This document shows positions 26,952 to 45,556 of a DNA stretch of 64,000 nucleotides, piece after piece. A program made the translations under genes and the position numbers. Position 1 is the first letter of the stretch. Each line of letters begins with the position of its first letter. The stretch spans positions 62,001-126,000 of the forward strand of contig NZ_LBIP01000016.1 in the NCBI RefSeq assembly GCF_001280435.1. Direction: 5' to 3'. The DNA comes from Mangrovimonas xylaniphaga. GTDB lineage: Bacteria; Bacteroidota; Bacteroidia; Flavobacteriales; Flavobacteriaceae. The notes beneath the pieces are model-generated. The model had not been told where the DNA came from, searched no databases, and worked only from the letters and a program-made list of their open reading frames with translations.

Positions 26952-28562
26952 ATGCTTACTCAACATGACAAACAGCGGTTAAGAAGCACTATTTTTAGGC
27001 ATCTTGACGGTATTGCTACGGCTACCACTGCCCATGCATTGCATGAAAAGGGTGTGCTCAATTACATATTGCAACAGCAACAAGTAGATCTAGAACAACT
27101 TACGGTAAAATTCAAGGCAAATGAGGGCTATTTAAATGTGGCTCTGCGAATTCTTTGTGCTCAAGGCTGGCTGAACCAAGAACCAATAACAAAGAACAAT
27201 ACCATTCAGTACGCTATTAATGACCAAAGTAAAAAGGCTTTTCAACTCATTCCATTGTACAAAGAAGCTGTTCAACTCCTATCCTATTCCGTGAAATTTC
27301 CAGAGGAACGCATTGGTCCGGATGCCTTTTTAGCATTGGAACGTATTTTCAAGAACTATGAAAATCATTTTGGATTGAAAAAACCGCCAGAAGATAGTCT
27401 GGAATTCCAAATTCTGAAACATATCGAAGGTGTAATAGTAGCCCCTATTATTGTGCTGATGGGAGTTCGCGGGCTGTTCCACAAATACTTTATGGAAGCC
27501 TCTTTTACTGCAGAAGAATACCATAGAAACCCTGAAAGTTTTAAAAAGATCCTAGACTTTTTTGCCTATTTGGGATGGTTTACCAAAAAAAAGAACACTT
27601 ATCAATTTACTGATACAGGTCTGTTTTTTGCCAAGCGAGCCACTGCTTATGGCGTTACCGTATCCTACCTCCCTACCTTTATAAATCTTGAAGCGCTTAT
27701 TTTTGGAAATCCCATCATCTTAAAAACCGATAATATAAACGAAACGGAAAAGCATGTAGACAGAGAAATGAATGTTTGGGGCAGCGGTGGCGCCCATTCC
27801 ACCTATTTCAAGGTCATAGATGAAGTGATTATTGAATTGTTCAACAAACCCATCGATGAGCAACCAAAAGGAATTTTAGACATGGGCTGTGGTAACGGAG
27901 CTTTTCTTCAACATATTTTCGATGTCATCGAACACCAAACCCTAAGAGGAAAAATGCTAGAGGAACATCCTTTACTTTTGGTTGGTGCCGACTTGAACCA
28001 AGCTGCATTGAAAGTCACCAGAGCCAATTTAATTTCTGCCGATATTTGGGCCAAAGTGATTTGGGGCGATGTAGGCAGACCTGATTTATTGGCTCAAGAC
28101 CTAAAAGAAGATTATGGTATCGATTTAGGAGATTTATTGAATGTAAGAACCTTTTTAGACCACAACAGGATTTGGACAGCGCCACAAAATCCTACCCAAA
28201 GAACCAGTATCTCTTCTGGTGCTTTCGCTTATAAAGGTGAGCGTCTTCAAAATAGCTTGGTGGAAGATTCGCTCCTAGAACATTTTCAGCGCTGGAAACC
28301 CTATGTGGAGCGGTTTGGCCTGCTAATTATAGAATTGCACACTATTGCTCCAGAATTGATAAGCAAAAACCTAGGCAAAACCCCAGCTACTGCCTATGAC
28401 GCCACCCATGGCTATAGCGACCAATATATCTTGGAAATTGATATCTTTATAGCCTTGGCGAAAGAGGCTGGATTGGCCCCGGTAGCACAGTATACCTCCA
28501 AATTCCCCAATAGTGACCTAGCAACAGTAAGTATTAATTTATTTAAAGGAGTTTCATCCTAG
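26952..28562 (+). CDS. class I SAM-dependent methyltransferase (AprA-related)
   Basis: A 536-residue protein. The N-terminal ~270 residues form winged-helix-like and helical modules (ALHEKGVLNYI..., ALRILCAQGWL, LDFFAYLGWF). A Rossmann methyltransferase domain follows with SAM motif I DMGCGNGAFLQ and motif II-like VGADLNQAALKV. The overall layout resembles AprA/CurA-type methyltransferases of polyketide loading modules and stand-alone bacterial relatives. No biosynthetic cluster surrounds it, so the substrate is unknown. It is followed 8 bp later by the DoxX gene. Confidence 0.78.
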   Translation: MLTQHDKQRLRSTIFRHLDGIATATTAHALHEKGVLNYILQQQQVDLEQLTVKFKANEGYLNVALRILCAQGWLNQEPITKNNTIQYAINDQSKKAFQLIPLYKEAVQLLSYSVKFPEERIGPDAFLALERIFKNYENHFGLKKPPEDSLEFQILKHIEGVIVAPIIVLMGVRGLFHKYFMEASFTAEEYHRNPESFKKILDFFAYLGWFTKKKNTYQFTDTGLFFAKRATAYGVTVSYLPTFINLEALIFGNPIILKTDNINETEKHVDREMNVWGSGGAHSTYFKVIDEVIIELFNKPIDEQPKGILDMGCGNGAFLQHIFDVIEHQTLRGKMLEEHPLLLVGADLNQAALKVTRANLISADIWAKVIWGDVGRPDLLAQDLKEDYGIDLGDLLNVRTFLDHNRIWTAPQNPTQRTSISSGAFAYKGERLQNSLVEDSLLEHFQRWKPYVERFGLLIIELHTIAPELISKNLGKTPATAYDATHGYSDQYILEIDIFIALAKEAGLAPVAQYTSKFPNSDLATVSINLFKGVSS

Positions 28563-29750: not shown

Positions 29751-29780
29751 AAAAAAGCCAATGCAAGTGCATTGGCTTCA
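29751..29780 (-). terminator. Terminator of the last LamG gene
   Basis: Stem AAGCCAATGC / GCATTGGCTT with a 4-nt loop. The T-run is on the minus strand. The stem sequence is the same as that at 32041-32069. Confidence 0.8.
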
Positions 29781-29803: not shown

Positions 29804-31054
29804 TTACATCTTAACAACTTTTATTGTTACGGCATCCAATTGGTCTGCCTTTAAGTTCAAGAAATATACTCCAGAATTAAACTGGCTCAATTCAATTTGA
29901 AACTCGTTAGTATTGTTAAATTGATATTGCCCTACCACTTTTCCTGTAATAGACACCAATTGTGCCTCTACTGTTTGATAAACACCATTTAAAGCAACAT
30001 TTAAGTTTTCTGAAGTTGGATTAGGGAATACTTTTAAAGTGTCCATTAAATTTTCTTCAAGCCCCAATGCATTTATATCTACTGTCACACATTCTGAAGT
30101 AGTTACACAAGTTCCTACTGTCACTTCAACAGCATAAGTTCCAGATGCCTCTGGTGTAAAAGTTTGCCCAATAGCTCCTTCTATAGCTGTATTGGCATTC
30201 GCGCAGTCTAACCATTGATAACTAGCTTCCTCTTGGTTTGCTGATAAGGTGTTATCTTCAACCGAAACTAAAGAGCGTCCTGTTACCCAGTTTGAAGTAG
30301 TTCCCGTCAATGCAAAATTCTTTAAAGTTCCCGTATCTGCTGTTGGACTTCCATCTACAGTTGTACTAACTCCAGAATTATCGGCATTAGGAATTCCTTC
30401 ATTAAATGGATAATAAGCAACCAAACCAGTTTCGTCTCCACAAAGTTCTGTGTACATTCTACTTTTTAACTCTTCCAGACTCAATACTTTATTCCAAATT
30501 CTCAACTCATCCATCTCACCTCTAAAAAAGTTAACCCCATCAACTCTCACTCCTATTTTAAGTTTTTCGCCATAAGAGGACGTATACGCATATTTAGCAA
30601 GAGTCGTTTCTGCATCCAATTTTCCATCCACATAAAATTTCACAGAATGATTCGTTGAAGTAGAAGACTCAAAAACCACAGCCACATGGTGCCATAAACC
30701 ATCATTTACAGATTTAACACCATTTACACCTCCCCCATTGACTTCAAGTCTTAAAGCATTATTAGGTAAAATATTAAATGTAAATCGATTACCCTTACTC
30801 TCCTTTCCCCAATCACATATCACACTCTGTCCTTCTCCAGTTGGATTAGTGTCTGCATTATAAGCCGTCGAATTTTTAGTCGTTTTAATCCATGCCTCAA
30901 TAGTTCGAGGATCAGTTCCTTGAACAGGTACTGTATTTCCTTGAATGTAATCATCCTCCCCATCAAAATGAATTCCTGTTTGAGCATTTCCAATCAAAAA
31001 CGAACCCGCCATTAAAGCTGACACCGCTATTTTTCTGTGTAATTGTTTAATCAT
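29804..31054 (-). CDS. LamG/Ig-like T9SS-secreted protein, copy 1 (single module)
   Basis: Secreted or surface-anchored protein. The start is set at the ATG giving MIKQLHRK, as in its paralogs; an upstream ATG adds 13 unrelated residues. Signal peptide ends ...GNAQ, mature end TGIHFDGEDDYIQG. Residues ~27-230 form a concanavalin-like LamG domain of the type-A variety (GQSVICDWGKESKGNRFTF, WHHVAVVF, GEMDELRIWN, ELCGDETGLVAYYPF). A short Ig-like segment (~245-330, YQWLDCAN...SGTYAVEVTV) follows. The T9SS type A sorting domain begins LKVFPNPTSENLNV (residue ~340) and ends in KVVKM. It probably binds glycans or acts as adhesin; the ligand is unknown. Confidence 0.88.
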   Translation of the reverse strand: MIKQLHRKIAVSALMAGSFLIGNAQTGIHFDGEDDYIQGNTVPVQGTDPRTIEAWIKTTKNSTAYNADTNPTGEGQSVICDWGKESKGNRFTFNILPNNALRLEVNGGGVNGVKSVNDGLWHHVAVVFESSTSTNHSVKFYVDGKLDAETTLAKYAYTSSYGEKLKIGVRVDGVNFFRGEMDELRIWNKVLSLEELKSRMYTELCGDETGLVAYYPFNEGIPNADNSGVSTTVDGSPTADTGTLKNFALTGTTSNWVTGRSLVSVEDNTLSANQEEASYQWLDCANANTAIEGAIGQTFTPEASGTYAVEVTVGTCVTTSECVTVDINALGLEENLMDTLKVFPNPTSENLNVALNGVYQTVEAQLVSITGKVVGQYQFNNTNEFQIELSQFNSGVYFLNLKADQLDAVTIKVVKM

Positions 31055-31116
31055 AATTTTATTTTTTTTGCAAAAAAAATCAATTCCAAACAAGAGTTAT
31101 GTTAAGACAAAAACGA

Positions 31117-31132
31117 TTAACCCTTATTTAAC
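31117..31132. promoter_or_regulatory. TTAAC-N6-TTAAC element upstream of LamG copy 1
   Basis: TTAAC at 31117-31121 and 31128-31132, period 11 bp, 63 bp before the start codon. See the findings for the shared pattern. Confidence 0.55.
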
Positions 31133-31293
31133 CTTACAATTCCAAAACACTACCACAAACGTAATTTTTAAAGGCACACTTTCCTAAAACACTTTAGATT
31201 TCTTTAGAATAATCTTATAATTCTTACTTGAATTTTCTTATCTACTTTCTGTATCTTGCCGGTCAGTTTAACTAATCAATGCCCCAAAACCCC

Positions 31294-32013
31294 ATGAAAC
31301 CTATTATTTTATTAGCATTTGCCATGTTCACCTCACTCCTTTCCGCTCAGGTACAGACTGGTAAAGCCTCCTTTTACGGCGATAAATTTGAAGGACGCTT
31401 AACTGCAAGTGGAGAGCCCTATTCGCACAAAAATGCTACGGCAGCCCACAGAAGTTTGCCTTTTGGCACCATGCTAAAAGTGACCAACCTTGCCAATAAC
31501 AAAACGGCCTATGTAAAAGTAAACGATAGAGGTCCCTTTGTAAGCGGCCGTATTATTGATCTGTCAAAGTCTATCGCGGAAAAATTGGATTTTGTAGCCG
31601 CTGGAGTTGCCGATGTTGTTATAGAAGTATTGGATGCTGGAGATTTGTCCATCCAAACTACAGAAGAAACCATCGCAGTTACTCCGGAAAACACTTCCGA
31701 GAGTCCTAATCCCGTAACCGCAGCCCCCATAGAATCTGAGTTTTACGAACTAGCGATTGATAGAGTAAAACCAGATTGGATTGGCGTTCAGATAGGCAGT
31801 TTCCAAGAGCTGGCCAACCTTATTCGTCTGGCCGACAACCTAAAAGTAAGCTATCAAAAAGAAGTTACCGTTCAGGTAAAAACCATTAATGGTGTAAAAA
31901 TCTATTCCCTGATTTTGGGAAAATTCAACACCCGTAGTAAAGCTGAAAATTTCAGAGATAAGGTTGAAGAAAAATATCCAGACTGTTTTATAGTGGATCT
32001 TACCACTTCTTAA
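31294..32013 (+). CDS. rlpA: RlpA-like lytic transglycosylase with SPOR domain
   Basis: Envelope protein of the RlpA family, whose double-psi beta-barrel cleaves denuded peptidoglycan glycan strands. Signal peptide ends LLSAQ. The barrel (~residues 20-105) contains GKASFYGDKFEGRLTASGE, SLPFGTMLKVTN and the catalytic-loop VNDRGPFVSGRIIDLS. A Pro/Thr-rich linker precedes a C-terminal SPOR domain (~160-235, VQIGSF...KIYSLILGKF) that binds septal glycan. I use the ATG giving MKPIILL as start. It sits on the opposite strand inside the LamG array and is not related to it in sequence. Confidence 0.9.
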   Translation: MKPIILLAFAMFTSLLSAQVQTGKASFYGDKFEGRLTASGEPYSHKNATAAHRSLPFGTMLKVTNLANNKTAYVKVNDRGPFVSGRIIDLSKSIAEKLDFVAAGVADVVIEVLDAGDLSIQTTEETIAVTPENTSESPNPVTAAPIESEFYELAIDRVKPDWIGVQIGSFQELANLIRLADNLKVSYQKEVTVQVKTINGVKIYSLILGKFNTRSKAENFRDKVEEKYPDCFIVDLTTS

Positions 32014-32040
32014 ATCATATACCAAAAGCTATAATTAAAA

Positions 32041-32070
32041 AAAAAGCCAATGCGTAATGCATTGGCTTTT
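32041..32070. terminator. Shared terminator, rlpA and LamG copy 2
   Basis: Stem AAAAGCCAATGC / GCATTGGCTTTT with a GTAAT loop and T-runs on both strands. The same stem core as the terminator at 29751, consistent with duplication of the whole gene plus terminator. Confidence 0.85.
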
Positions 32071-32093
32071 TTTTTAAATGTAAATTCTCCCGA

Positions 32094-33344
32094 TTAGATT
32101 TTTACAACTTTTAAGGTTACAGCTTCCAATTCAGCTGCTTTCAAATTCAAGAAATAAACCCCAGAATTGAAATTATTAAGATCTAATGAAAAGCCATTGG
32201 TATTATTGAATTGGTATTGCCCAATAACTTTTCCTGTAATAGCTACCAATTGAGCGTTAACAGTTTCATAAACACCATTTAAAGACACGTTTAAGTTTCC
32301 AGAAGTTGGATTAGGATACAATTGAAGTCCATTAGCAAACAGATTGTCTTCAATACCCAATGTACTACTTGCAAAATTAACTGTCTCTGAGATTTCAGTA
32401 CAGTTTCCAACAGTGATTTCCACAGCATAGTTACCGTTTTGAGACGGTGTAAACGTTTGGGTAGTTACACCTTCAATTACAGCATTGTCATTGTCAACAT
32501 CTAGCCATTGGTAAGTTGCATCCTCTTGGTTAGCTGATAGAGTAGTCTCATCACTTGCAACAGAAGTATCAATTCCTGAAGTCAAATACCCCTCAGCAAA
32601 GTTTGAGTTAAACAAATTCATGCCAAAATTGTGTAATTCATTAACATCCGTCGGAGAGACTTCATTTACAATTGTAGTAATTGCAGTGTTATCAGCACCA
32701 GCAACCCCCTCATTCAATTTATAATAAGCTACTAATTCATCTGAATAATCACAAAGTTCACTATTCATATCTGCTAGAATATCGCCCTGAGTTCTAGCTA
32801 CCTTCCAGATTCGCACATCATCAATAGTACCACTATAGCCTGTACCAGATGGGTTTTTAGCTCTAGCTCCAATTTGGATAGGAGCAAAATTAGAAGTATA
32901 AGTCCCTGTCCCTGTGAAATTCCCTTGAGCCTCTATTACTCCATCAAGATAAAGTTTATATTGATTCTCCTCCAAGGAAGGGTCATAAGTTACGGCCACA
33001 TGGTGCCATCCCATAGGATTACGAGTGGTTCCAGTAAGTCTATTTGTTATCCCTCCTCCTGTTTCTACCTCTAGATAATAATCTTGAAATTTAAAGGTGA
33101 AGCGAGGCCCTCCCTCGGGAGTTAAATCACCACCACCCCATTCTACAATAATATCCTGGCCGCTACCAGAGTGATTAACCCAAGCTTCAACCGTTCTTGG
33201 TGCATTACCTTGTGGTCCATCGAGGTCTGTTAAAATATAATCTCCATAACCATCAAATCTTAATCCAGTTTGCGCATTGGCAGTTAGCATAGAAGCTGCC
33301 AAACAAGCAGCAAAAAAGCATTTTTTGTGTATTTTTTTAATCAT
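32094..33344 (-). CDS. LamG/Ig-like T9SS-secreted protein, copy 2 (single module)
   Basis: 416 residues. Signal peptide MIKKIHKKCFF...TANAQ, mature TGLRFDGYGDYILTDL. The LamG domain is of the type-B variety (IVEWGGGDLTPEGGPRFTFK, MGWHHVAVTYDP, GTIDDVRIWKVART, ELCDYSDELVAYYKLNEG). Then an Ig-like segment (TYQWLDVDNDN...NYAVEITVGNC) and a T9SS type A domain (LQLYPNPTSGNLNVSLNG...). The closest relative in the window is the first module of copy 4. Exported, ligand unknown. Confidence 0.88.
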   Translation of the reverse strand: MIKKIHKKCFFAACLAASMLTANAQTGLRFDGYGDYILTDLDGPQGNAPRTVEAWVNHSGSGQDIIVEWGGGDLTPEGGPRFTFKFQDYYLEVETGGGITNRLTGTTRNPMGWHHVAVTYDPSLEENQYKLYLDGVIEAQGNFTGTGTYTSNFAPIQIGARAKNPSGTGYSGTIDDVRIWKVARTQGDILADMNSELCDYSDELVAYYKLNEGVAGADNTAITTIVNEVSPTDVNELHNFGMNLFNSNFAEGYLTSGIDTSVASDETTLSANQEDATYQWLDVDNDNAVIEGVTTQTFTPSQNGNYAVEITVGNCTEISETVNFASSTLGIEDNLFANGLQLYPNPTSGNLNVSLNGVYETVNAQLVAITGKVIGQYQFNNTNGFSLDLNNFNSGVYFLNLKAAELEAVTLKVVKI

Positions 33345-33409
33345 GAGTAAGTTAATTTTTGTTACAAGGAACTAAAAAAGTTAACACAGCTAAACATATT
33401 CAACGACCA

Positions 33410-33425
33410 TTAACCCTTCCTTAAC
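33410..33425. promoter_or_regulatory. TTAAC-N6-TTAAC element upstream of LamG copy 2
   Basis: TTAAC at 33410-33414 and 33421-33425, 66 bp before the start codon. Confidence 0.55.
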
Positions 33426-33461
33426 ACCCTAAATCAACTAACTTACTGACAACTAAAAACA

Positions 33462-33493
33462 AAAAAGCCAACCCATATCAGGTTGGCTCTTTT
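33462..33493 (-). terminator. Terminator of LamG copy 3
   Basis: Stem AGCCAACC / GGTTGGCT with T-run on the minus strand. The same stem recurs at 35831 and 39579. Confidence 0.8.
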
Positions 33494-33512
33494 AAATAAC
33501 CCCAAAATACAA

Positions 33513-35684
33513 TTACATTTTAATCACTTTTACGGTTACAGCATCCATATTGTCTGCCTTAAGTTTCAAGAAATAAAGTCCAGAATTGAAATTGCTTAAA
33601 TTCAAGTCAAACCCATTGCTATTGCTAAATTGGTACTTACCAACCACTTTTCCTGTAATGGACACCAATTGCGCATCTACTGTTTGGTACACTCCGTTTA
33701 AAACTACATTTAAGTTACCAGAAGTTGGGTTTGGAAACACTTTTAAAGTATCCATTAAGCTTTCTTCTATTCCCAATGCATTAACATCTACTGCCATACA
33801 GCCTGAAGTAGTTACACAACCATCTACAGTAATTTCCACAGCATAGTTACCAGACGCCTCTGGAGTAAAAGCTTGCTCTGTCGCCCCATCTATAACAGCA
33901 TTACCATTATCACAATCAACCCATTGATATGTAGCAACAACTTCTGTAGGAGTAGTTTCTAGATTTGTTTGAGCCGCCGTTAAAGTAGTTCCTTCCAAAC
34001 TCAATAAACCATGGCCTTCTACCCAGTTAGACTCAGCGCCTGACAATGTAAAATTGTTTAAGGTAGCATCATCGCCTGTAGCACTCATATCAGTAAGAGT
34101 TGCAATGCCTGTATTGTCCTCTCCAGGAGTTCCTTCTCCAAACGGATAGTAAATTACAAGCCCTGTTTCATCTCCACAAAGCTCTACATTCATTCTGCTT
34201 TGGATTTGCGCTTCAGTCAAGGCTACATTCCATACTCTTACTTCATCCATATCTCCTTCAAATGGACCAGACCCGTCTACTCTTTTACCCAACCTAATCT
34301 TTGTCGCCCAACTACTTGAACTAGTATTTACCGTAGGATTCCCAGAGGCATCCTCTGTACCATCCACATATACTTTTACCGTAGGTGAAGCCGATGGGTT
34401 GTATACAGCCGCTACATGGTGCCATGCTCCATCATTGACAGGTGTAGTACCAGACACTCCTCCCGCTGCGGTTTCCAAACGAATACCATTACTCCATAAA
34501 AGATTGAAAGTAAATCTTTGACCAGAACTTGAATATCCCCAATCACAAATCACACTTTGCCCATCTCCCCCTGCGCTGGCCGGCTGTGAATCCTTGGTAG
34601 TTCTCACCCAAGCCTCAACGGTTCTTGCTCCATTTCCAGCAACAGGAATTGTTGTTCCTTGCACATAATCATCTACCCCATCAAAATGAAGACCAGTACG
34701 CTTGTTGAAAGCTGGCTCAGCCACAAAACTCGCAGCATCAGACATTACCGAACACGCTCCTAGCGTAATTTCAACAGCATAATTACCTGTTTCACTAGGA
34801 ATAAATGATTGGCTTGTGGCACCGTCGATAGCTGCATTAGCATTGTCAGCATCTACCCATTGGTAAGTGGCATCCGCTTGATTAGCCGTTAAGCCAGATC
34901 CATCAACACTTACTGTAGCATCTATATCACTATCAACATTACCAGATACATAATTAGAATCTGTACCCGACAAAACAAATCCCTCCATCGTGTTTACACT
35001 TGAAGAATTTACTTCATCAACAACATTTGTAATACTTGTATTATCTTCTCCTGCGGCACCTTCATTTAATTTATAATAAGCTACCAAACCTTCTGGAAGC
35101 TCACAAAACTCAGCATTCATACTATCTGAGATTTCAATTTGGGTTCTAGCCACATTCCAAATTCTAACTTCATCCATAGAACCTCCAAAAAACATAGTAT
35201 TAGGTCCAGAAACACGATTTCCAATAAGCACATTTTCATTACCTGAAGGCGTATTAACAGTTGTTAAATTTGCCGTAGCTTTCTCCACACCATTAATATA
35301 TAGATAACCAGTTCCATTGTTTAAAACAAAAGCTACGTGTGTCCAAACATCTAAAGGCACCGTATCTGGATCGGTTCCCATATTTGCATTTGTACCCCCA
35401 GAAACAAACTTCAAGCTGTTATCATTTTTAACAAGAAAGGTGTTCCTTGATCCAACATCATTAGTACCATAATCCAAAATCGCAAAACTAGACGAAGGAA
35501 CAGGAGATGGAACATAAATCCAAGCTTCAAAGGTTCTATTGGCCGCACCTAGTACACCCGCATAATCTGTTTGAACATAATCATCCGTACCATCAAAATT
35601 CAATCCAGTCTGAGCGCTGGAAATCAATACAGATCCCGCGATAAATGCAGGCAAAAACACTTTTTTGTGTAGTTTTTTAATCAT
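33513..35684 (-). CDS. LamG/Ig-like T9SS-secreted protein, copy 3 (two modules)
   Basis: 723 residues. Signal peptide MIKKLHKKVFLPAF...SSAQ. Module 1 is a type-C LamG (YAGVLGAANRTFEAWIY, FAILDYGTND, WTHVAFVLNNGTGYLYING), close to copy 5. It is followed by an Ig-like segment. Module 2 restarts with NKRTGLHFDGVDDYVQGTT, a mature N-terminus placed internally, and is a type-A LamG almost identical to module 2 of copy 4. A second Ig-like segment and the T9SS type A domain (LKVFPNPTSGNLNVVLNG) end the protein. Domain fusion of two array members is evident. Confidence 0.88.
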   Translation of the reverse strand: MIKKLHKKVFLPAFIAGSVLISSAQTGLNFDGTDDYVQTDYAGVLGAANRTFEAWIYVPSPVPSSSFAILDYGTNDVGSRNTFLVKNDNSLKFVSGGTNANMGTDPDTVPLDVWTHVAFVLNNGTGYLYINGVEKATANLTTVNTPSGNENVLIGNRVSGPNTMFFGGSMDEVRIWNVARTQIEISDSMNAEFCELPEGLVAYYKLNEGAAGEDNTSITNVVDEVNSSSVNTMEGFVLSGTDSNYVSGNVDSDIDATVSVDGSGLTANQADATYQWVDADNANAAIDGATSQSFIPSETGNYAVEITLGACSVMSDAASFVAEPAFNKRTGLHFDGVDDYVQGTTIPVAGNGARTVEAWVRTTKDSQPASAGGDGQSVICDWGYSSSGQRFTFNLLWSNGIRLETAAGGVSGTTPVNDGAWHHVAAVYNPSASPTVKVYVDGTEDASGNPTVNTSSSSWATKIRLGKRVDGSGPFEGDMDEVRVWNVALTEAQIQSRMNVELCGDETGLVIYYPFGEGTPGEDNTGIATLTDMSATGDDATLNNFTLSGAESNWVEGHGLLSLEGTTLTAAQTNLETTPTEVVATYQWVDCDNGNAVIDGATEQAFTPEASGNYAVEITVDGCVTTSGCMAVDVNALGIEESLMDTLKVFPNPTSGNLNVVLNGVYQTVDAQLVSITGKVVGKYQFSNSNGFDLNLSNFNSGLYFLKLKADNMDAVTVKVIKM

Positions 35685-35752
35685 AATAGTTAAATTTTAG
35701 TTGTCTTTAAAAGTATTTTAGACATATAGAACCCACACAAAAAAACAGTCCT

Positions 35753-35768
35753 TTAACTTTAATTTAAC
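35753..35768. promoter_or_regulatory. TTAAC-N6-TTAAC element upstream of LamG copy 3
   Basis: TTAAC at 35753-35757 and 35764-35768, 69 bp before the start. On the minus strand a -7-like TACTTTTA lies at 35708-35715, 38 bp from the element. Confidence 0.6.
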
Positions 35769-35830
35769 CTAAACAGAACACAAAATACTGAATAACAAAA
35801 GAATCACATCTTCCTCTTTACTATGTAATA

Positions 35831-35860
35831 AAAAAGCCAACCTTCTGGGGTTGGCTTTTT
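35831..35860 (-). terminator. Terminator of LamG copy 4
   Basis: Stem AAAAAGCCAACC / GGTTGGCTTTTT with a 6-nt loop. The adjacent 3' untranslated stretch (ACACATTACACAATTACATC) is shared with copies 5 and 6. Confidence 0.85.
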
Positions 35861-35879
35861 AAATAAACACATTACACAA

Positions 35880-38057
35880 TTACATCTTTACAACTTTAAC
35901 AGTTACAGCATCCATATTGTCCGCCTTAAGTTTCAAGAAATAAAGTCCAGAATTAAAATTGTTGGTATTTAATTCAAAACCATTGGTGTTGTTGAACTGG
36001 TATTGACCAACCACTTTTCCTGTAATGGACACCAACTGGGCCTCTACAGTTTGGTAAACACCGTTCATCGCTACATTCAAAGTTCCCGATGTTGGGTTAG
36101 GAAACACTTTTAAAGTGCCCATTAAGTTTTCGTCAACCCCCAAGGCATTTACATCTACTGCCATGCAGGCCGAAGTAGTTACACAACCATCTACAGTAAT
36201 TTCCACAGCGTAGTTACCTGAAACTTCCGGAGTAAAAGTTTGCTCTATTGCGCCATCTATAACGGCATTGCCATTATCACAATCAACCCATTGATATGTT
36301 GCAACAAGCTCGGTTGGAGTAGTTTCTGTATTTGTTTGAACCGCTGTTAAGGTAGTTCCCTCCAAACTCAATAAACCATGGCCTTCAACCCAGTTAGACT
36401 CAGTACCTGACAAAGCAAAATTGTTTAGGGTAGCATCGTCACCAGTAGTACTCTTATCTGTAAGTGTAGTAATCCCCGTATTGTCCTCTCCTGGAGTTCC
36501 CTCTCCAAAAGGATAATAGATTACAAGCCCCGTTTCATCTCCACAAAGCTCTACATTCATTCTGCTTTTTATTTGCGCTTCCGTCAAGGCAATATTCCAT
36601 ACTCTAACTTCATCCATATCTCCTTCAAATAGTCCAGCTCCATCAACTCTTTTTCCTAATCTAATCTTACTTATAGTACTAGTATTAACTGTAGGATTTC
36701 CAGAGGCATCCTCTGCACCATCCACAAATACTTTTACTGTAGGTGAAGCTGATGGATCATAAACTGCTGCCACATGGTGCCAGGTACCATCATTTACAGG
36801 TGTAGTACCAGACACTCCTCCCGCTGCGGTTTCCAAACGTATACTATTACTCCATAAAAGATTGAAAGTAAATCGCATACCAGAACTTGAGTACCCCCAA
36901 TCACATATTACACTTTGCCCATCCCCTCCATCACTAGCAGGGCGCGAATCTTTTGTGGTTCTTATCCAAGCTTCAACAGTTCTTGCTGTACTTCCAGCAA
37001 CAGGAGTTGAGGTTCCTTGTACGTAATCGTCAACACCATCAAAATGGAGCCCCGTACGTTTGTTAAAAACAGGCTCTGCCAATACAATGCTCATTGAAAC
37101 GGACATTTCTGTACAATCCCCTACTGTAATTTCTACAGCATAATTACCACTTTCACTAGGAGTAAAATCCTGAGCTGTAGCTCCCTCTATTTCTGCATTA
37201 GCATTGTCCACATCTACCCATTGATAAACAGCATCTACCTGATTCGCTGTTAATGTAACATCATCACTAGTTATCGTAGTATCAATACCAGAAGTTACTT
37301 TTCCTGCCGCATAATTTGAATACGCATTTCCTGATAAGGCAAAGTTTTTCAATTCATTAACATCTGTAGAAGACACTTCATTTACAACCGAAGTAATAGC
37401 TAAATTACTTCCGTTTGCCGTCCCTTCATTTAACTTATAGTAAGCAACCAATTCAGCTGGCAAATCACATAACTCATTATTCATGTCTGCCAGAATCTCA
37501 GATTGAGTTCTTGCCACGTTCCAAATTCTCACATCATCAATAGTCCCGCTAAAGGCTGTTGCTCCAATATTAACATTCCTACCCCCTAATTGAATATTAG
37601 CTGCATCTTGAGTATCTGTACCAGTGCCAGTAAAGTTACCTTCAGCATCTAGATTCCCGTCTACGTATAATTTATACTCATTTTCTTGAGATGGATCGTA
37701 AGTTACGGCCACATGATGCCAACTTGAATTTAAATAAGTTGAACCATCCAAGTAATTATTAGTCCCTCCCGTTTCAATTCTCACTTTACTACTCTGGATT
37801 TTAAAGGTGAAACGAGGCCCCCCGTTCTCTGTTGGAGTTCCACCACCCCATTCCACAATAAGTGCTTGGCGAGATTGGTAACTCCATTTTACCCAAGCCT
37901 CAACTGTTCTCGGCGAATTTCCTAAAACTCCACCAAGATCTGTTAAAATATAATCATCGGAACCATCGAAATGCAAACCTGTTTGCGCCTGAGAAGTTAA
38001 CACAGACACCGCAAAACACGTAGTAAAAAATAGTTTTTTACGTAGATTTTTTATCAT
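35880..38057 (-). CDS. LamG/Ig-like T9SS-secreted protein, copy 4 (two modules)
   Basis: 725 residues from the ATG giving MIKNLRKKLFF; an upstream ATG adds 21 unrelated residues. Signal peptide ends TSQAQ. Module 1 is a type-B LamG (YILTDLGGVLGNSPRTVEAW, LIVEWGGGTPTENGGPRFTF, GTIDDVRIWNVART) close to copy 2. Module 2 begins FNKRTGLHFDGVDDYVQGTS and is nearly identical to module 2 of copy 3, including its Ig-like segment. Ends in a T9SS type A domain. Copies 3 and 4 thus share their 3' halves but have different 5' modules, which suggests recombination within the array. Confidence 0.88.
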   Translation of the reverse strand: MIKNLRKKLFFTTCFAVSVLTSQAQTGLHFDGSDDYILTDLGGVLGNSPRTVEAWVKWSYQSRQALIVEWGGGTPTENGGPRFTFKIQSSKVRIETGGTNNYLDGSTYLNSSWHHVAVTYDPSQENEYKLYVDGNLDAEGNFTGTGTDTQDAANIQLGGRNVNIGATAFSGTIDDVRIWNVARTQSEILADMNNELCDLPAELVAYYKLNEGTANGSNLAITSVVNEVSSTDVNELKNFALSGNAYSNYAAGKVTSGIDTTITSDDVTLTANQVDAVYQWVDVDNANAEIEGATAQDFTPSESGNYAVEITVGDCTEMSVSMSIVLAEPVFNKRTGLHFDGVDDYVQGTSTPVAGSTARTVEAWIRTTKDSRPASDGGDGQSVICDWGYSSSGMRFTFNLLWSNSIRLETAAGGVSGTTPVNDGTWHHVAAVYDPSASPTVKVFVDGAEDASGNPTVNTSTISKIRLGKRVDGAGLFEGDMDEVRVWNIALTEAQIKSRMNVELCGDETGLVIYYPFGEGTPGEDNTGITTLTDKSTTGDDATLNNFALSGTESNWVEGHGLLSLEGTTLTAVQTNTETTPTELVATYQWVDCDNGNAVIDGAIEQTFTPEVSGNYAVEITVDGCVTTSACMAVDVNALGVDENLMGTLKVFPNPTSGTLNVAMNGVYQTVEAQLVSITGKVVGQYQFNNTNGFELNTNNFNSGLYFLKLKADNMDAVTVKVVKM

Positions 38058-38126
38058 AATTGTTAATTTATTAGTTGTCTTTAAAAATATTCCAATCCGC
38101 ACGGAAGAGTAATAAAACATTAGCTT

Positions 38127-38142
38127 TTAACCTATTTTTAAC
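38127..38142. promoter_or_regulatory. TTAAC-N6-TTAAC element upstream of LamG copy 4
   Basis: TTAAC at 38127-38131 and 38138-38142, 70 bp before the start. Minus-strand -7-like TATTTTTA at 38082-38089, 38 bp from the element. Confidence 0.6.
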
Positions 38143-38179
38143 CCACAGAAACACTAACGTATTGACCCCGTGTAAAAAA

Positions 38180-38210
38180 AAAAAAAAAGCTAACCCAAAA
38201 GGTTAGCTTT
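38180..38210 (-). terminator. Terminator of LamG copy 5
   Basis: Stem AAAGCTAACC / GGTTAGCTTT preceded on the plus strand by a long A-run, which is a T-run on the minus-strand transcript. Confidence 0.8.
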
Positions 38211-38230
38211 CATAAAAACACATTACACAA

Positions 38231-39436
38231 TTACATCTTTACCACTTTAACAGTTGCAGCATCCAAATGATCTGCCCTAAGGTTTAAGAAATAAAGCCCC
38301 AAATTGAACTTGTTTAGATCTAATGAAAATTCATTGGTATTACTGAATTGATATGTCGCCACCACCTTTCCAGTGATAGATACCAATTGTGCATCCACAG
38401 TTTGGTACACACCGTTTAAAGTTACATTTACATTTCCTAAGGTTGGGTTAGGATATAATTTAAGATTGTTGGCAAACAACTCATCTTCCACTCCCAATGA
38501 AGACACCTCTACACATTCCGAAGTCGTGGTACAACCATCTACAGTAATTTCTACAGCATAGCTCCCCGGCTCTACTGGTGTATAGACCTGTTCTGTAGCA
38601 CCAACAATTGCTGTATTGGCATTATCACAGTCTACCCATTGGTAAGTAGCTCCTGTTTGAGCCGCTGTAAGGGCAGCTCCTTCCAGCGCAACCAAACCAT
38701 GACCTTCCACATAATTAGAAACGGCTCCTGCAGACAAATCGAATCCCATTAAGGTACCATCATTCCCATTGACCGCATCAATGGCTGTTGTTACCCCTGA
38801 ATTATCTCCTTCGGCAATCCCTTCATCCAACTTAAAATAGGCTTGTAATCCAGCCACATCTTCACATACTCCAGTATTCATGGTAGATTGGATTTCCGCC
38901 TGGGTCCTTGCAATATTCCATATTCTAACCTCATCGATATTACCTTGAAACAAAATAGACCCTCCTGTAACGCGCTCTCCAATTTTCAGATTATCACCAG
39001 TAGAAGGTGTATTCAGTGCAGTGACAGAAGCGGAGCCCATTTCATCACCATTTATATACAAATAACCTGTAGTACCATTTTTAACAAAAGCCACATGAAC
39101 CCAGGTATCCAACGGTACGGTATCTGCCTCGGTAGATACATTGGCTGATCCGGCGATAAATTTTAAACTTCTATCACCGCCAACCGCAAACGTATTTCTA
39201 CCTCCGGTTTGATTCAATCCATAATCTAAAATTGCCAAATTGGATGTTGGTGAAGAGGAGGGTATGTAAATCCAAGCTTCAAAAGTTCTGTTGGCCGATC
39301 CAAGCACGCCCGCATAAGGTGTTTGTATATAATCATTAACCTTATCAAAATTCAATGCGTTTTGCGCATTAAAAGTTAACACAGAAACCATGAAACATAC
39401 AGTAAAAAACATATTTTTGCGTAGTTTTCTTATCAT
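38231..39436 (-). CDS. LamG/Ig-like T9SS-secreted protein, copy 5 (single module)
   Basis: 401 residues. Signal peptide MIRKLRKNMFFTVCFM...FNAQ, mature NALNFDKVNDYIQTP. Type-C LamG (YAGVLGSANRTFEAWIYIP, LAILDYGLNQTGGRNTF, WVHVAFVKNGTTGYLYING, GNIDEVRIWNIART). Ig-like segment (TYQWVDCDNANTAIVGATEQ). T9SS type A domain (LKLYPNPTLGNVNVTLNG ... KVVKM). Related to module 1 of copy 3. Confidence 0.88.
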   Translation of the reverse strand: MIRKLRKNMFFTVCFMVSVLTFNAQNALNFDKVNDYIQTPYAGVLGSANRTFEAWIYIPSSSPTSNLAILDYGLNQTGGRNTFAVGGDRSLKFIAGSANVSTEADTVPLDTWVHVAFVKNGTTGYLYINGDEMGSASVTALNTPSTGDNLKIGERVTGGSILFQGNIDEVRIWNIARTQAEIQSTMNTGVCEDVAGLQAYFKLDEGIAEGDNSGVTTAIDAVNGNDGTLMGFDLSAGAVSNYVEGHGLVALEGAALTAAQTGATYQWVDCDNANTAIVGATEQVYTPVEPGSYAVEITVDGCTTTSECVEVSSLGVEDELFANNLKLYPNPTLGNVNVTLNGVYQTVDAQLVSITGKVVATYQFSNTNEFSLDLNKFNLGLYFLNLRADHLDAATVKVVKM

Positions 39437-39505
39437 AATTGTTAAATTTTAGTTGTTTCTTAAAATTACCGCACACTATAGGTGACACTAAATTAAATAG
39501 ACCTA

Positions 39506-39521
39506 TTAACATTAATTTAAC
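39506..39521. promoter_or_regulatory. TTAAC-N6-TTAAC element upstream of LamG copy 5
   Basis: TTAAC at 39506-39510 and 39517-39521, 70 bp before the start. Minus-strand -7-like TAATTTTA at 39461-39468, 38 bp from the element. Confidence 0.6.
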
Positions 39522-39578
39522 TTGTAAATTTCACAAAAACCTGAACCTTAACCATATAATCAATTTCATCAAACAAAA

Positions 39579-39606
39579 AAAAGCCAACCTAAAAAGGTTG
39601 GCTTTT
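39579..39606. terminator. Terminator of LamG copy 6
   Basis: Stem AAAAGCCAACCT / AGGTTGGCTTTT with a 4-nt loop. Confidence 0.85.
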
Positions 39607-39627
39607 CAAAATAAACACATTACACAA

Positions 39628-40872
39628 TTACATCTTTACCACTTTAACTGTAGCAGCATCTAAATGATCTGCCTTAAGGTTTAAGAAATAAAGCCCCGAA
39701 TTGAAATTGTTAAGATCGATTGCAAATTCATTGGTATTGCTGAATTGGTATGTTGCCACCACTTTTCCTGTGATAGATACCAATTGTGCATCTACAGTTT
39801 GGTACACACCGTTTAAAGTTACATTTACATTTCCTGAAGTTGGGTTAGGATACAATTTTAAACTGTTGGCAAATAAGGTATCTTCCACTCCTAATGCCTC
39901 AACCTCTACCGCCATACAAGTTGATGTTACGGTACAGCCTTCACTATCTGTAATCTCAACCGCATAGGTTCCAGATGCTTCTGGAGTAAACGACTGCCCT
40001 GTGGCACCATCTACAGCTGTATTTCCATCTGTACAGTTAAACCATTGATAAGTTGCATCTGTTCCAGTTGCCATAAGTGTAGATCCATCTAATGTAACCG
40101 TGTTATCAACAGAACTTGTAAGTGTTGGACCCGAAACAAAATTAGAAAAAGCACCACTTAAAGAAAAGTTATGCAACGTTCCATTATAGCCATTTTTAAG
40201 CTCGGATACTGTCGTAATACCTGCATTCTCTCCACTGGCAGTTCCTTCGTTAAATTGATAATAAGCTACCAAACCTTCTTCATCCCCACACAATGTAACC
40301 CCTTTATTAAGATCAATATCATTTGCACTTCTTGCCACGTCCCAAATACGCACTTCAGCTATCTTTCCATCAAATGAGGTAGATGGATCCATATCATTTC
40401 TTTGTCCTATCACAATATTATTACTTCCTACATTCAGAGTTTGACTTGTAATATCCCCCTCAACATTCAATGCACCATCAACATATAACTTGTATTTATT
40501 ACTGGAAAGAGAATTATCATACACTACCGCTACATGATGCCATTGAGAATTTGTTATATAGGCTGTGCCGTTTAATCCACCTCCACCAACTTCAATCCTG
40601 ATAACCGAAGCACCTGGATTAATTTTAAATGAAAATCGTGTTCCCCCACCATCCATGGAGCCCATACCCACAATAAACCTCTGACCTGCGTCGTATGAAG
40701 CATTAATCCAAGCTTCAACTGTTCTAGAAGCACTGCCTTCTATAGAAGGCGCCGTGGTGGTTATATAATCATTGATACCATCAAATTCCAAACCATTTTG
40801 TGCATTGGAAGTTAACATAGACACCGCAAAACATGCAGGTAAAAGCATTTTCTTGTGTAGTTTTTTTATCAT
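39628..40872 (-). CDS. LamG/Ig-like T9SS-secreted protein, copy 6 (single module)
   Basis: 414 residues. Signal peptide MIKKLHKKMLLPACFA...SNAQ, mature NGLEFDGINDYITT. A LamG domain nearest the type-B variety (GSASRTVEAWINASYDAGQR, GGTRFSFKINPG, QWHHVAVVYDNSLSSNKYKL). Then an Ig-like segment (TYQWFNCTDGN...GTYAVEITDSEGC) and a T9SS type A domain nearly identical to that of copy 5 (LKLYPNPTSGNVNVTLNG). First gene of the array in transcriptional order. Confidence 0.88.
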   Translation of the reverse strand: MIKKLHKKMLLPACFAVSMLTSNAQNGLEFDGINDYITTTAPSIEGSASRTVEAWINASYDAGQRFIVGMGSMDGGGTRFSFKINPGASVIRIEVGGGGLNGTAYITNSQWHHVAVVYDNSLSSNKYKLYVDGALNVEGDITSQTLNVGSNNIVIGQRNDMDPSTSFDGKIAEVRIWDVARSANDIDLNKGVTLCGDEEGLVAYYQFNEGTASGENAGITTVSELKNGYNGTLHNFSLSGAFSNFVSGPTLTSSVDNTVTLDGSTLMATGTDATYQWFNCTDGNTAVDGATGQSFTPEASGTYAVEITDSEGCTVTSTCMAVEVEALGVEDTLFANSLKLYPNPTSGNVNVTLNGVYQTVDAQLVSITGKVVATYQFSNTNEFAIDLNNFNSGLYFLNLKADHLDAATVKVVKM

Positions 40873-40940
40873 AATTGTTAATTTTTTGTTGCAACGAAAA
40901 TAAATAAGCCTTCAATAATCCTCATCTATACAAACCTCGT

Positions 40941-40956
40941 TTAACCTTAATTTAAC
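40941..40956. promoter_or_regulatory. TTAAC-N6-TTAAC element upstream of LamG copy 6
   Basis: TTAAC at 40941-40945 and 40952-40956, 69 bp before the start codon. Confidence 0.55.
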
Positions 40957-40961
40957 CCAAC

Positions 40962-40995
40962 AAAAAAAGCCAACCCAAAAGGATTGACTCTTTAA
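40962..40995 (-). terminator. Decayed array-type terminator
   Basis: AAAAAAAGCCAACC then CAAAAGGATTGACTCTTT: the right arm of the AGCCAACC/GGTTGGCT hairpin now has mismatches. No gene ends here. Confidence 0.45.
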
Positions 40996-41190
40996 TAACA
41001 TAACACAATTTGCATAAGACCTTAAAGGCCTTTTGCGTCCAAATTTTAAGGCTAACTACTTCCTTATAATTTGAATTCGTTTAATCAACTAAAAACTTAA
41101 CTTAATAAAAAAATCTAATGATCTTAGAGTACTGAAATTCAAACAAATGACAGCTAAAAAAATCTTCAATTCATTTATAAAACTACGTTG

Positions 41191-41253
41191 CAAAGGTAAC
41201 CAAAAGGCCTTTCCTGACCTTTAAAATAAGTGTACCGTTAACACTTGATTAAC
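41191..41253 (-). promoter_or_regulatory. Minus-strand promoter with upstream TTAAC repeats, no adjacent gene
   Basis: Minus-strand -7 TACCTTTG at 41191-41198, with TTAAC at 41238-41242 and 41249-41253 (period 11) 40 bp upstream. This is the best consensus promoter of the array, yet the nearest start codon is 320 bp downstream. Confidence 0.5.
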
Positions 41254-41269
41254 CTTTGTGAAATTGTTG

Positions 41270-42274
41270 TTAATTGAAGATTTTCACCAACAGCTCTTTT
41301 AATAGATCACCTTGAGGAATAGCATTGGCCCCCACCCCTTTACTTTTAACGTCAAAGTCCCGCAAGGTTTCTACAATGGCACTCACTTTTCGCATAGGAA
41401 AATTGCGTGCGGCTACGGTGTATTCGTTTACAAAATAAGGATTGATTTTTAAGGCTGAAGCCACATTTCTTGGATTTTTATCACTCAATCCGTGAAATTG
41501 CAATAACTGAGAAAAGAAACTGAACAGCAAGGATACCGTCATCACCATAGGGTTATCTTTTGGGTTATCTGCAAAATAGTTAACAATCTGAAAAGCCTTT
41601 AAAGTGTTACGTTCCCCTATTGCCTTTCTGAGCTCAAAATTGTTATAGTCCTTACTAATCCCTATATTTTCCTCAATCTGTTCCGCAGAAATCTCAGTAC
41701 CCTTTGGAAGAATAATTTTAAGTTTATCCAGCTCGTTACTGATTTTGCTCAAATCGGTTCCTAAAAACTCCACCAACATTTGGGCGGCTTTTGGTGTAAT
41801 ACTGTAGTTCTGCCCAGAAAGCACACGTCTAATCCAATCGGCCACTTGGTTATCGTAAAGTTTTTTGCTTTCATAAACTACACCTGTCTTTTTAATGCTT
41901 TTATAAAGCGCTTTACGCTTATCGATTTTCTTGTACTTATAATTGAGCACCAAAACGGTTGAAGGCTGAGGATTTTCGGCATAAGCAGCCAACTTTTCAA
42001 TTTGCCGTGCCAAGTCCTGGGCCTCTTTAACAATCACCACCTGGCGTTCTGCCATCATTGGGAAACGCTTGGCATTGCTCACAATATCATCTACAGAAAT
42101 ATCACGTCCATACAACACCATTTGGTTAAAGCCCTTCTCCTCTTCCGCAAGCACATTGTCTTCAATATAATCGGATATCTTATCTATATAATAAGGTTCT
42201 TCGCCCATTAAAAAATAGATAGGTTTTAAATTTCCGTTCCTAATATCTGTTACTATCTGTTTAACCTCGTCCAA
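41270..42274 (-). CDS. holA: DNA polymerase III subunit delta
   Basis: Clamp-loader delta subunit that opens the beta sliding clamp. The N-terminal domain reads LKPIYFLMGEEPYYIDKISDYI, then FPMMAERQVVIVKEAQDL and VLVLNYKYKKIDKRKALYK. The middle shows LVEFLGTDLSKISNELDKL and the C-terminal collar domain is alpha-helical (NPRNVASALKINPYFVNEY). Length (334) is typical. Divergent from the HsdR_N gene. Confidence 0.93.
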   Translation of the reverse strand: MDEVKQIVTDIRNGNLKPIYFLMGEEPYYIDKISDYIEDNVLAEEEKGFNQMVLYGRDISVDDIVSNAKRFPMMAERQVVIVKEAQDLARQIEKLAAYAENPQPSTVLVLNYKYKKIDKRKALYKSIKKTGVVYESKKLYDNQVADWIRRVLSGQNYSITPKAAQMLVEFLGTDLSKISNELDKLKIILPKGTEISAEQIEENIGISKDYNNFELRKAIGERNTLKAFQIVNYFADNPKDNPMVMTVSLLFSFFSQLLQFHGLSDKNPRNVASALKINPYFVNEYTVAARNFPMRKVSAIVETLRDFDVKSKGVGANAIPQGDLLKELLVKIFN

Positions 42275-43847: not shown

Positions 43848-43863
43848 TTAACCTTGATTTAAC
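43848..43863. promoter_or_regulatory. TTAAC-N6-TTAAC element upstream of the small T9SS gene pair
   Basis: TTAAC at 43848-43852 and 43859-43863, 57 bp before the start of 43921. Relative to its gene the orientation is opposite to that in the LamG array. Confidence 0.45.
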
Positions 43864-43920: not shown

Positions 43921-44631
43921 ATGAAAAAACTACTACTTTTATTTTGCTTTGCAGCATTTGGAACTACCAATACTATTGGCCAAACAACTTTTGGATGGGA
44001 AACAGCTCCAAGTGGCGCAGCTAAAACTAAGTCGGAAACTATAGATGGTATTACCATTACCGGTTCTTGTCGTGATGGAAATGTTACCTTAGGCTCGAGT
44101 AGCCCCCATGGAGGTTCTGGAAAATTTTTCCATTCACAATACACAAATTCCACAGAATTCAGCTTCAACACCCCAGTGAATTTAATTTCCATAATTGCAA
44201 TGAGCTATTCGGATCCTGACATCACATATACATTTACGCCTTTCGGTGGAGACAACACACCGGTTATAGTAACCTTAGACTATCATCACGCCACTGTTGA
44301 ATTAAATTGGGAAGGTGTAACGTCCTTTACTATATCCTCTGAAGCAAAAGAATTTGCTTGGTTTGATGATATAATAGTAGAAAACACCTCCTTAAGTTCT
44401 CCTGATTTATCAATGGAAGAAATAACCGTTTACCCAAGCCCAGCATATTCTACCTTATACTTAAAAGGACTTACAGCTATCACTATCTCAAAAATTTACA
44501 ATAGTTTAGGTCAATTGGTATTGAGCACTACTGCTTCAGAAATAAATATAGAACCGCTTACCAACGGTGTTTATATTTTAAAAGTAACCACCGATAAAGG
44601 AAACTTCGCAAAACAATTTATAAAACAGTAA
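43921..44631 (+). CDS. small T9SS-secreted protein, paralog 1
   Basis: 236 residues. Signal peptide MKKLLLLFCFAAFG...TIGQ, mature end TTFGWETAPSGA. A beta-sandwich domain of about 130 residues follows (EFSFNTPVNLISIIAMSYS, TYTFTPFGGDNTPVIVTL, SFTISSEAKEFAWFDDIIVE). The T9SS type A sorting domain is VYPSPAYSTLYLKGL...NGVYILKVTTDKGNFAKQFIKQ. I do not recognise the core domain; its layout resembles carbohydrate-binding jelly-roll modules. Tandem with its paralog 44715-45431. Confidence 0.82.
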   Translation: MKKLLLLFCFAAFGTTNTIGQTTFGWETAPSGAAKTKSETIDGITITGSCRDGNVTLGSSSPHGGSGKFFHSQYTNSTEFSFNTPVNLISIIAMSYSDPDITYTFTPFGGDNTPVIVTLDYHHATVELNWEGVTSFTISSEAKEFAWFDDIIVENTSLSSPDLSMEEITVYPSPAYSTLYLKGLTAITISKIYNSLGQLVLSTTASEINIEPLTNGVYILKVTTDKGNFAKQFIKQ

Positions 44632-44714: not shown

Positions 44715-45431
44715 ATGAAAAAACTTACTTTTTTGTTCTTATCACTAGCCATTCAAACAACAGCCACATTATCACAAACAACTTTTGATTGGGAAACGCT
44801 CCCTTCTCCAGTTGGATCCACATCCTTAAGCGAGACAAGAGATGGTATAACTGTAACTTTTTCAGACTCCAACTCATCAAAAGAAGTTGTATCCTTAGCT
44901 AATATTTCATATGGTGGATCTGGAAATTGTATTTTTAGCAATAACTCAAGTAGTGTTGTATTTACTTTTGACACAGCCGTAAATGTCATTTCGATTCTTG
45001 CCATGAATGGTAATCCACCTGAAACTTATACATTTACTCCTACAGGAGGTACAAATACACCTGTAGTTGTTGAATTTACAGGCAATGCTTCCGAAGTATC
45101 GCTTAAATGGACTGGCATAACCTCATTTACAGTAACTGCAAATCAGCCTACTCCTATTATTTTTGATAACTTAGTCGTTACAACTGAAGCTTTGAGTATA
45201 CCCAAATTATCAGCGGAACAAGTAACTATTTATCCAAACCCAACGGCCTCCATCATATACATTAAAGGTGTTACTAATATCACTTCATCAGAAATATACA
45301 ACAATTTAGGACAATTAGTATTGAGTAACACTGAAGCAGAAATCAATGTTGAAGACCTTACCGCTGGTGTTTATATTTTAAAAGTAACCACCGACAAAGG
45401 CAATTTCACTAGACAATTTGTAAAAGAGTAA
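44715..45431 (+). CDS. small T9SS-secreted protein, paralog 2
   Basis: 238 residues, clearly homologous to the preceding gene along its whole length (TTFDWETLPSPVG, DGITVTFSDSNSS, YTFTPTGGTNTPVVVEFTG, IIFDNLVVTTEALS). It ends in a T9SS type A domain (IYPNPTASIIYIKGV...TAGVYILKVTTDKGNFTRQFVKE). No TTAAC element lies in the 83-bp gap; an AAACG-TAC-CGTTT inverted repeat sits at 44660-44672. It is probably cotranscribed with paralog 1. Confidence 0.82.
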   Translation: MKKLTFLFLSLAIQTTATLSQTTFDWETLPSPVGSTSLSETRDGITVTFSDSNSSKEVVSLANISYGGSGNCIFSNNSSSVVFTFDTAVNVISILAMNGNPPETYTFTPTGGTNTPVVVEFTGNASEVSLKWTGITSFTVTANQPTPIIFDNLVVTTEALSIPKLSAEQVTIYPNPTASIIYIKGVTNITSSEIYNNLGQLVLSNTEAEINVEDLTAGVYILKVTTDKGNFTRQFVKE

Positions 45432-45540: not shown

Positions 45541-45556
45541 TTAACATTAATTTAAC
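45541..45556. promoter_or_regulatory. TTAAC-N6-TTAAC element in intergenic region
   Basis: TTAAC at 45541-45545 and 45552-45556; the N6 is ATTAAT as in the element of LamG copy 5. About 160 bp upstream of the candidate small RNA. Confidence 0.4.

Follow-up and report, generated by a model that had tools for sequence, protein, structure and literature searches.

The 64,000-nt window studied here (the whole stretch of DNA analyzed) lies on contig C8 of the 3.82-Mb genome of Mangrovimonas xylaniphaga and contains an array of genes for predicted surface proteins of the type IX secretion system (T9SS). Between positions 29804 and 40872, six paralogous open reading frames (ORFs) are encoded on the minus strand, as an earlier note on this DNA had claimed, and in each of them Laminin_G_3 (PF13385, here LamG) and the type A tail of T9SS cargo (PF18962/TIGR04183) score above the curated cut-offs. 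The genes follow one plan, with a signal-peptide-like start, one or two Laminin_G_3 domains, an immunoglobulin (Ig)-like segment and a T9SS type A C-terminal domain (CTD); two LamG modules are present in copies 3 and 4 and one in each remaining copy. The window copies are designated c1 to c6, genes of Mangrovimonas sp. TPBH4 and of the genomes G002 and ST2L15 are designated T_n, B_n and S_n, respectively, and.1 and.2 denote the first and second LamG modules of a two-headed gene. From ORFs, Pfam and the LamG tree described below, copy 1 (29804 to 31054; tail profile also used; likely start codon at 31054; positional counterparts T_8 and B_8) has a type A head, copy 2 (32094 to 33344; counterparts T_7 and B_7) a type B head and copy 5 (38231 to 39436; nearest to B_1 of G002) a type C head, whereas copy 6 (39628 to 40872), for which a structure model was also used, has a type D head. 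Copy 3 (33513 to 35684) carries a type C module, Ig, a type A module, Ig and the CTD; copy 4 (35880 to 38057; likely start codon at 38057) carries a type B module in the first position and is otherwise built alike. The earlier note had placed a tandem array at 29804 to 41269. The array is real, but it is interrupted between copies 1 and 2 by an rlpA-like gene on the plus strand (31279 to 32013; DPBB_1 plus SPOR by ORF and Pfam), whose position is kept in two sister species, and 40873 to 41269 is intergenic, with holA beginning at 41270. On the other flank from holA lies p158, a 158-aa gene at 29237. A hairpin scan found terminator-like hairpins after copy 1 (29754 to 29779), copy 3 (33460 to 33494, minus strand), copy 5 (38185 to 38211) and copy 6 (39578 to 39607).

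The copies scored 73.9 to 181.8 bits against PF13385 (gathering score, 27.6) and thus belong to this family. Por_Secre_tail was found in all six, with 38 to 46.6 bits for one tail profile (cut-off, 23) and 43 to 51 bits for Pfam (cut-off, 27); the tail families used were TIGR04183 and PF18962. The N termini, judged by reading of the sequences, are signal-peptide-like, with a lysine-rich start, a hydrophobic stretch and an A-x-A-like end visible in the copies; the earlier note had described common signal peptides. The genome encodes the T9SS machinery (SprA, 2790 bits; PorU sortase, 1416 bits), and SprA and PorU are present in all three genus genomes. Since signal-peptide-like start, tail, SprA and PorU are all present, export and surface anchoring are predicted; the tail would target the protein to the T9SS and fix it to the outside of the cell.

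A model of copy 6 was calculated with AlphaFold2 using 22 aligned family members as input (mean predicted local distance difference test score, 81), and its residues 24 to 252 form a ConA-like/pentraxin-like sandwich. The best structural match of the LamG model was 4dqa, a putative carbohydrate-binding protein of Bacteroides ovatus (Z, 22.5; 202 aligned residues; root mean square deviation, 3.1), and PAPP-A (Z, about 22) and PTX3 (Z, about 20) were matched as well. A sequence profile search agreed with a LamG/pentraxin-like fold, with the S-layer-domain protein 4qvs among its matches. The Pentraxin family (PF00354; cut-off, 25) gave only 20 to 23 bits in copies 1, 3 and 6 and no reported match in copies 2 and 5, exceeding the cut-off only in copy 4 (28 bits), and the pentraxin signature HxCx[ST]Wx[ST] was not seen on reading of the array proteins. 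Since the family test with PF00354 failed, the heads are not filed as pentraxins, although the model gives them a LamG/pentraxin-type binding fold. They share the domain fold of Laminin_G_3/pentraxin-like proteins such as 4dqa and PTX3 (Z, about 20 to 22) but are only 15 to 25% identical to them in sequence, lack the signature and are fused to Ig-like segments and T9SS tails. The description "lectin/adhesin-like" in the earlier note fits this modeled fold; ligand binding itself is a prediction. Alternatively, the heads could recognize one another or polysaccharide of the cell itself, and the proteins would then be a surface scaffold or components of a biofilm or outer layer whose head types serve self-recognition. 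The proteins are small, at about 400 aa, and have one or two heads, no catalytic domain was detected in them by Pfam, 4qvs is among the sequence matches, and pentraxin-like folds often oligomerize; however, the annotation of 4dqa speaks for carbohydrate binding, and we consider a scaffold unlikely. The rate in LamG loops was higher than in strands (1.14 versus 0.79), but this was discarded as a sign of selection because such a gap is expected in any beta-sandwich.

A LamG tree of 29 modules from four genomes gave four types, i.e., A (c1, c3.2 and c4.2), B (c2 and c4.1), C (c5 and c3.1) and D (c6), of which B and D are sister groups. Only three types had been proposed before, with copy 6 counted as type B. 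Since the c6 head is only 45 to 48% identical to c2 and c4.1 and forms its own clade with B_2, B_6 and T_4 (support, 100/99), it is a fourth type and c2 and c4.1 remain as type B; the proposed members of types A and C were recovered as such. Amino acid identity of the heads was 34 to 48% between types and 55 to 65% within a type but about 89 to 90% for c3.2 and c4.2. Indeed, the second halves of copies 3 and 4 are sisters and closely alike (LamG, 89% aa and 85% nt; CTD, 86% aa and 83% nt), while the first modules differ (type C versus type B), just as had been noticed, and identities and tree make copy 4 a chimera. The sorting domains, in contrast, are not "near-identical" throughout: the CTDs are 70 to 92% identical (aa) across the six copies, and only those of c5 and c6 deserve that term.

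One genome per species was compared, and the variation documented is variation between species. In searches of 60 relatives, the array was confined to the genus. The interval from holA to p158 holds 6 of these genes in the window species, 8 in TPBH4 and 9 in G002. The more distant relative ST2L15 has two LamG genes beside holA (region L076:10001-12618), and since they sit upstream of holA and not downstream, either the array or holA has moved. In G007, the nearest other genus checked, p158 and holA are present with unrelated genes between them, and related LamG-Ig-tail proteins elsewhere in the order are single or few per genome. TPBH4 and G002 each have one two-headed gene, of the C+A type, whereas the window species has two, C+A (c3) and B+A (c4). 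Because the other two have C+A only, the B+A pairing of c4 seems either to have arisen newly or to have been lost from the other species. A uniform copy number and module order, together with agreeing module trees, had been named as the outcome that would speak against recombination. Across species, the copy numbers are 6, 8, 9 and 2, the module order differs and the trees conflict, and recombination is not refuted. The G002 array also has a DUF1254/DUF1214 gene inserted on the opposite strand (region L069:7690-8724).

The flanking genes gave the species tree ((window, TPBH4), G002), with a median synonymous divergence (dS) of 0.62 for window-TPBH4, 1.24 for window-G002 and 1.29 for TPBH4-G002. 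In 31 core genes, the dS between TPBH4 and G002 was never under 0.68, whereas that of T_7 and B_7 was 0.31 in LamG, 0.04 in Ig and 0.18 in the tail. Over 600 bp the two genes are 98.7% identical, compared with a core maximum of 92.8% over about 36 kb. According to the species tree, c2 should be nearer to T_7, but it is not (c2/T_7 LamG dS, 0.96). Here, a surface locus was exchanged between species at a tract that is far more alike than the surrounding core genes. T_4/B_2 (dS, 0.30) and T_5.2/B_5.2 (dS, 0.36) also suggest exchange but were less clear by identity, and T_4/B_2 was not accepted as a second interspecies tract since over 600 bp its identity (93.5%) barely exceeds the core maximum (92.8%), although its dS is below that of every core gene.

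Heads and tails of the same gene have different histories. The heads of c5 and c6 are unrelated (40% aa), with 41% identical synonymous codons in the head but 81% in the tail (Fisher test, P = 4.6e-7); T_3 and T_4 gave 48 and 87%, respectively (P = 2.2e-7), and several further pairs behaved alike. T_5.2/B_5.2 had the opposite pattern, with synonymous codons more alike in the head than in the tail. The T_1 head groups with S_1 (support, 97/96), but the tail data reject T_1 plus S_1 (approximately unbiased test, P = 0.0018 for protein and 0.0037 for DNA). A head transfer between TPBH4 and ST2L15 was not supported, as the synonymous identity of T_1 and S_1 (0.55) is inside the core range (0.41 to 0.55). 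In B_5, the first module is sister to B_3 and the second is sister to T_5.2. At the level of sequence, these comparisons demonstrate recombination over evolutionary time, mosaicism with breakpoints, the chimeric nature of copy 4 and exchange between species. The array had been called "actively recombining"; recombination, chimeras and interspecies exchange are supported, but "actively" is not, because the dS of c3.2/c4.2 is already about 0.7, near the divergence of sister species (median, 0.62), and each species is represented by one genome.

If the array were an ordinary birth-and-death family of routine T9SS surface proteins, with old duplications, little recombination and tails held alike by purifying selection and codon constraint, then the high protein identity of the tails in every species, the age of the c3.2/c4.2 duplication and the finding that, in the three congeners, tail likeness inside a genome does not exceed that across genomes (P = 0.41) would fit. 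However, synonymous codons are far more alike in tails than in heads in genes with unrelated heads and the reverse is seen in T_5.2/B_5.2, head and tail trees conflict, and the T_7/B_7 tract lies above every core window; such a family is therefore quite improbable. The equal likeness of tails within and between genomes also fits exchange that crosses genome boundaries, or retention in common. Concerted evolution of the tails private to each genome was rejected for the three congeners and was significant only with ST2L15 included.

All 25 array genes in the four genomes have a direct repeat, GTTAA-N6-GTTAA, with an 11-bp period, 78 to 89 bp before the ATG, and an isolated LamG gene on contig C5 of the window species carries this box too. 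Its 10 fixed bases are invariant (10/10) in 26 LamG promoters, while flanking bases are only 28 to 46% alike. In the window, the pattern matched 9 times, compared with 0.43 matches expected. Pattern scan and promoter alignment placed the boxes of copies 1 to 6, all on the minus strand, at 31117 to 31132, 33410 to 33425, 35753 to 35768, 38127 to 38142, 39506 to 39521 and 40941 to 40956, respectively. Two more minus-strand boxes, conserved in TPBH4 and G002, lie antisense upstream of a small T9SS gene (box, 43848 to 43863; gene, 43921 to 44631, plus strand) and just past another one (box, 45541 to 45556; gene, 44715 to 45431, plus strand). The strict box GTTAAATNAANGTTAA gave 9, 10 and 8 matches in the three genus genomes versus 1 each for a reversed control, and outside the array it was found upstream of the isolated LamG gene and beside genes with T9SS tails. 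It was at chance level in the other Flavobacteriaceae sampled and absent from order-level homologs with a readable upstream region, and a family-wide motif was thus dismissed. Genome-wide enrichment of a looser pattern was also rejected (48 matches versus 53 in controls); since the loose pattern is at chance, only promoter position and conservation mark true boxes. In many promoters, a TAnnTTT-like candidate -7 element was seen by eye roughly 35 to 50 bp downstream of the box; a scan for sigma70-type promoters found no more sites than in shuffled sequences.

The box, together with a two-component system linked to it, was not foreseen in the earlier reading of the array. On contig C5 (1756000 to 1767500), a sensor kinase and an OmpR-type regulator, at about 1761.6 to 1763.7 kb, form an operon followed by two T9SS cargo genes, and the box precedes the kinase and each of both cargo genes in 3/3 genus genomes. 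The regulator belongs to the OmpR/PhoB type (PF00072, 104 bits; PF00486 [Trans_reg_C], 57.8 bits), and an 11-bp direct repeat suits dimers of this family. It was found at E ≤ 1e-90 in 3/3 genus genomes versus 0/37 others, and a second copy, about 60% identical, exists. The best NCBIfam match was RprY (NF051850), with which it shares the OmpR-type architecture, but since the score of 220 bits is below the equivalog cut-off of 370, it is not RprY by that definition. In comparison with RprX/RprY of the Bacteroidota, it seems to be a paralog specific to Mangrovimonas; the RprY paper searched contained no GTTAA motif. Because the same repeat precedes the kinase operon and its T9SS cargo neighbors, the array is probably under this kinase/regulator pair, and the regulator would control both the array and itself.

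We favor the view, which is probably correct, that the array is a recombining, lineage-specific repertoire of genes for lectin-like proteins displayed through the T9SS, coexpressed under the control of its own two-component system. Each copy would be a stand-alone cassette with operator box, signal peptide, LamG head(s), Ig-like spacer and T9SS type A tail, in most cases closed by a hairpin terminator. Duplication would make copies whose heads then diverge into types, and homologous exchange between the conserved cassette ends, sometimes across species, could join heads to new tails and produce chimeras with two heads, of which copy 4 is an example. The LamG head may bind a ligand, and a glycan carried by algae, polysaccharide particles or other cells is the likeliest candidate; four head types, single or paired, could give several binding specificities, a diversity from which the bacterium might benefit. 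The box-linked system would switch on the array jointly, and since the box is retained in all copies, joint expression is likelier than a switch between single copies. Antigenic or phase variation by a program, with one expressed copy, silent donors and a dedicated recombination system, is very improbable, and the antigenic diversity considered in the earlier note found no support. A tandem row of paralogs whose ends are conserved and whose middles vary does resemble a set of donor cassettes. However, no copy is truncated, and all have complete signal-peptide-like starts and tails; each has its own promoter box and several a terminator-like hairpin; no expression site was seen; no silent truncated donor, invertible promoter or adjacent recombinase was recognized among the Pfam-named neighbors; and most head pairs (34 to 65% aa) are too divergent for frequent exchange.

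A bolder form of the coexpressed repertoire, which we put forward tentatively, is that a two-component system arose within Mangrovimonas, that its OmpR-type regulator recognizes GTTAA-N6-GTTAA and that it turns on the whole reassorting lectin repertoire at once, with cassettes traded between species. If true, the bacterium would present many binding specificities together instead of switching one antigen at a time. The ligand might be a mangrove or marine polysaccharide or an alga; this is a conjecture based on where the genus lives, its members being described as gliding and mangrove associated (PMC11261673), with M. yunxiaonensis being algicidal (PMC4246170).

Several observations weigh against a coexpressed and exchanging repertoire. 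Only T_7/B_7 clearly tops the core identity, T_4/B_2 being marginal; the CTDs of the three congeners show no excess likeness within genomes; and the TPBH4 genome (G001) is listed with 7% contamination. The boxes at 43848 and 45541 run opposite in orientation to the small T9SS genes, the looser pattern is not enriched genome-wide, and, of the four genomes with array genes, the regulator search covered the three congeners. Finally, LamG folds occur in enzymes and scaffolds, too.

The attachment of marine flavobacteria to algae and particles is shaped by their T9SS surface proteins. An operator, a candidate kinase/regulator pair and a head-swapping family together are testable by ordinary genetics. 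By behavior, the closest known system is the tandem array of leucine-rich repeat (LRR) T9SS surface proteins of Flavobacterium psychrophilum, for which 15 to 23 genes, depending on the strain (PMC4172266 and PMC8400371), and joint induction of 17 LRR genes by fish plasma (PMC9723704) are reported. Both are arrays of tandem paralogous secreted proteins in a flavobacterium, rearranged and variable in copy number. However, the heads are LamG/pentraxin-like in Mangrovimonas, with no LRR family among the Pfam matches of the array, and the variation in copy number (6, 8 and 9) is documented between species, not strains. An equivalent of the common box and linked two-component system was not reported for the LRR array in the portions of the F. 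psychrophilum literature searched. Surface proteins of Porphyromonas gingivalis are also diversified by domain rearrangement and allelic exchange (PMC5266723); in both of these members of the Bacteroidota, rearrangement is combined with horizontal exchange and the mosaic departs from the strain tree, but P. gingivalis has strain variants at several separate loci, whereas Mangrovimonas has a whole tandem lectin-like array with exchange between species. A literature search on LamG/T9SS tandem arrays gave no match for the terms used. New relative to the known arrays are the LamG heads, the interspecies exchange and the link between a conserved box and a two-component system specific to the lineage.

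Some further features were seen around the boxes and the array. An extra loose box, GTTAATCAAGTGTTAA, lies at 41238 to 41253 (minus strand), on the holA side of copy 6 and about 370 bp upstream of its start codon. A strict box, inverted, precedes by about 240 bp a long secreted-protein gene (>1000 aa, its end outside the region; C5, about 339696), and TPBH4 is similar. The small T9SS-tailed genes at 43921 to 44631 and 44715 to 45431 evolve much faster than their neighbors (60 to 66% nt identity to TPBH4; nonsynonymous divergence [dN], 0.3 to 0.45), and TPBH4 and G002 have one gene between the boxes matching the 43848/45541 pair, compared with two in the window. On the plus strand at 26952 to 28562, an AprA-type methyltransferase (PF23525, PF23589 and PF23526) is encoded beside a DoxX gene, with synteny extending to G007 outside the genus.

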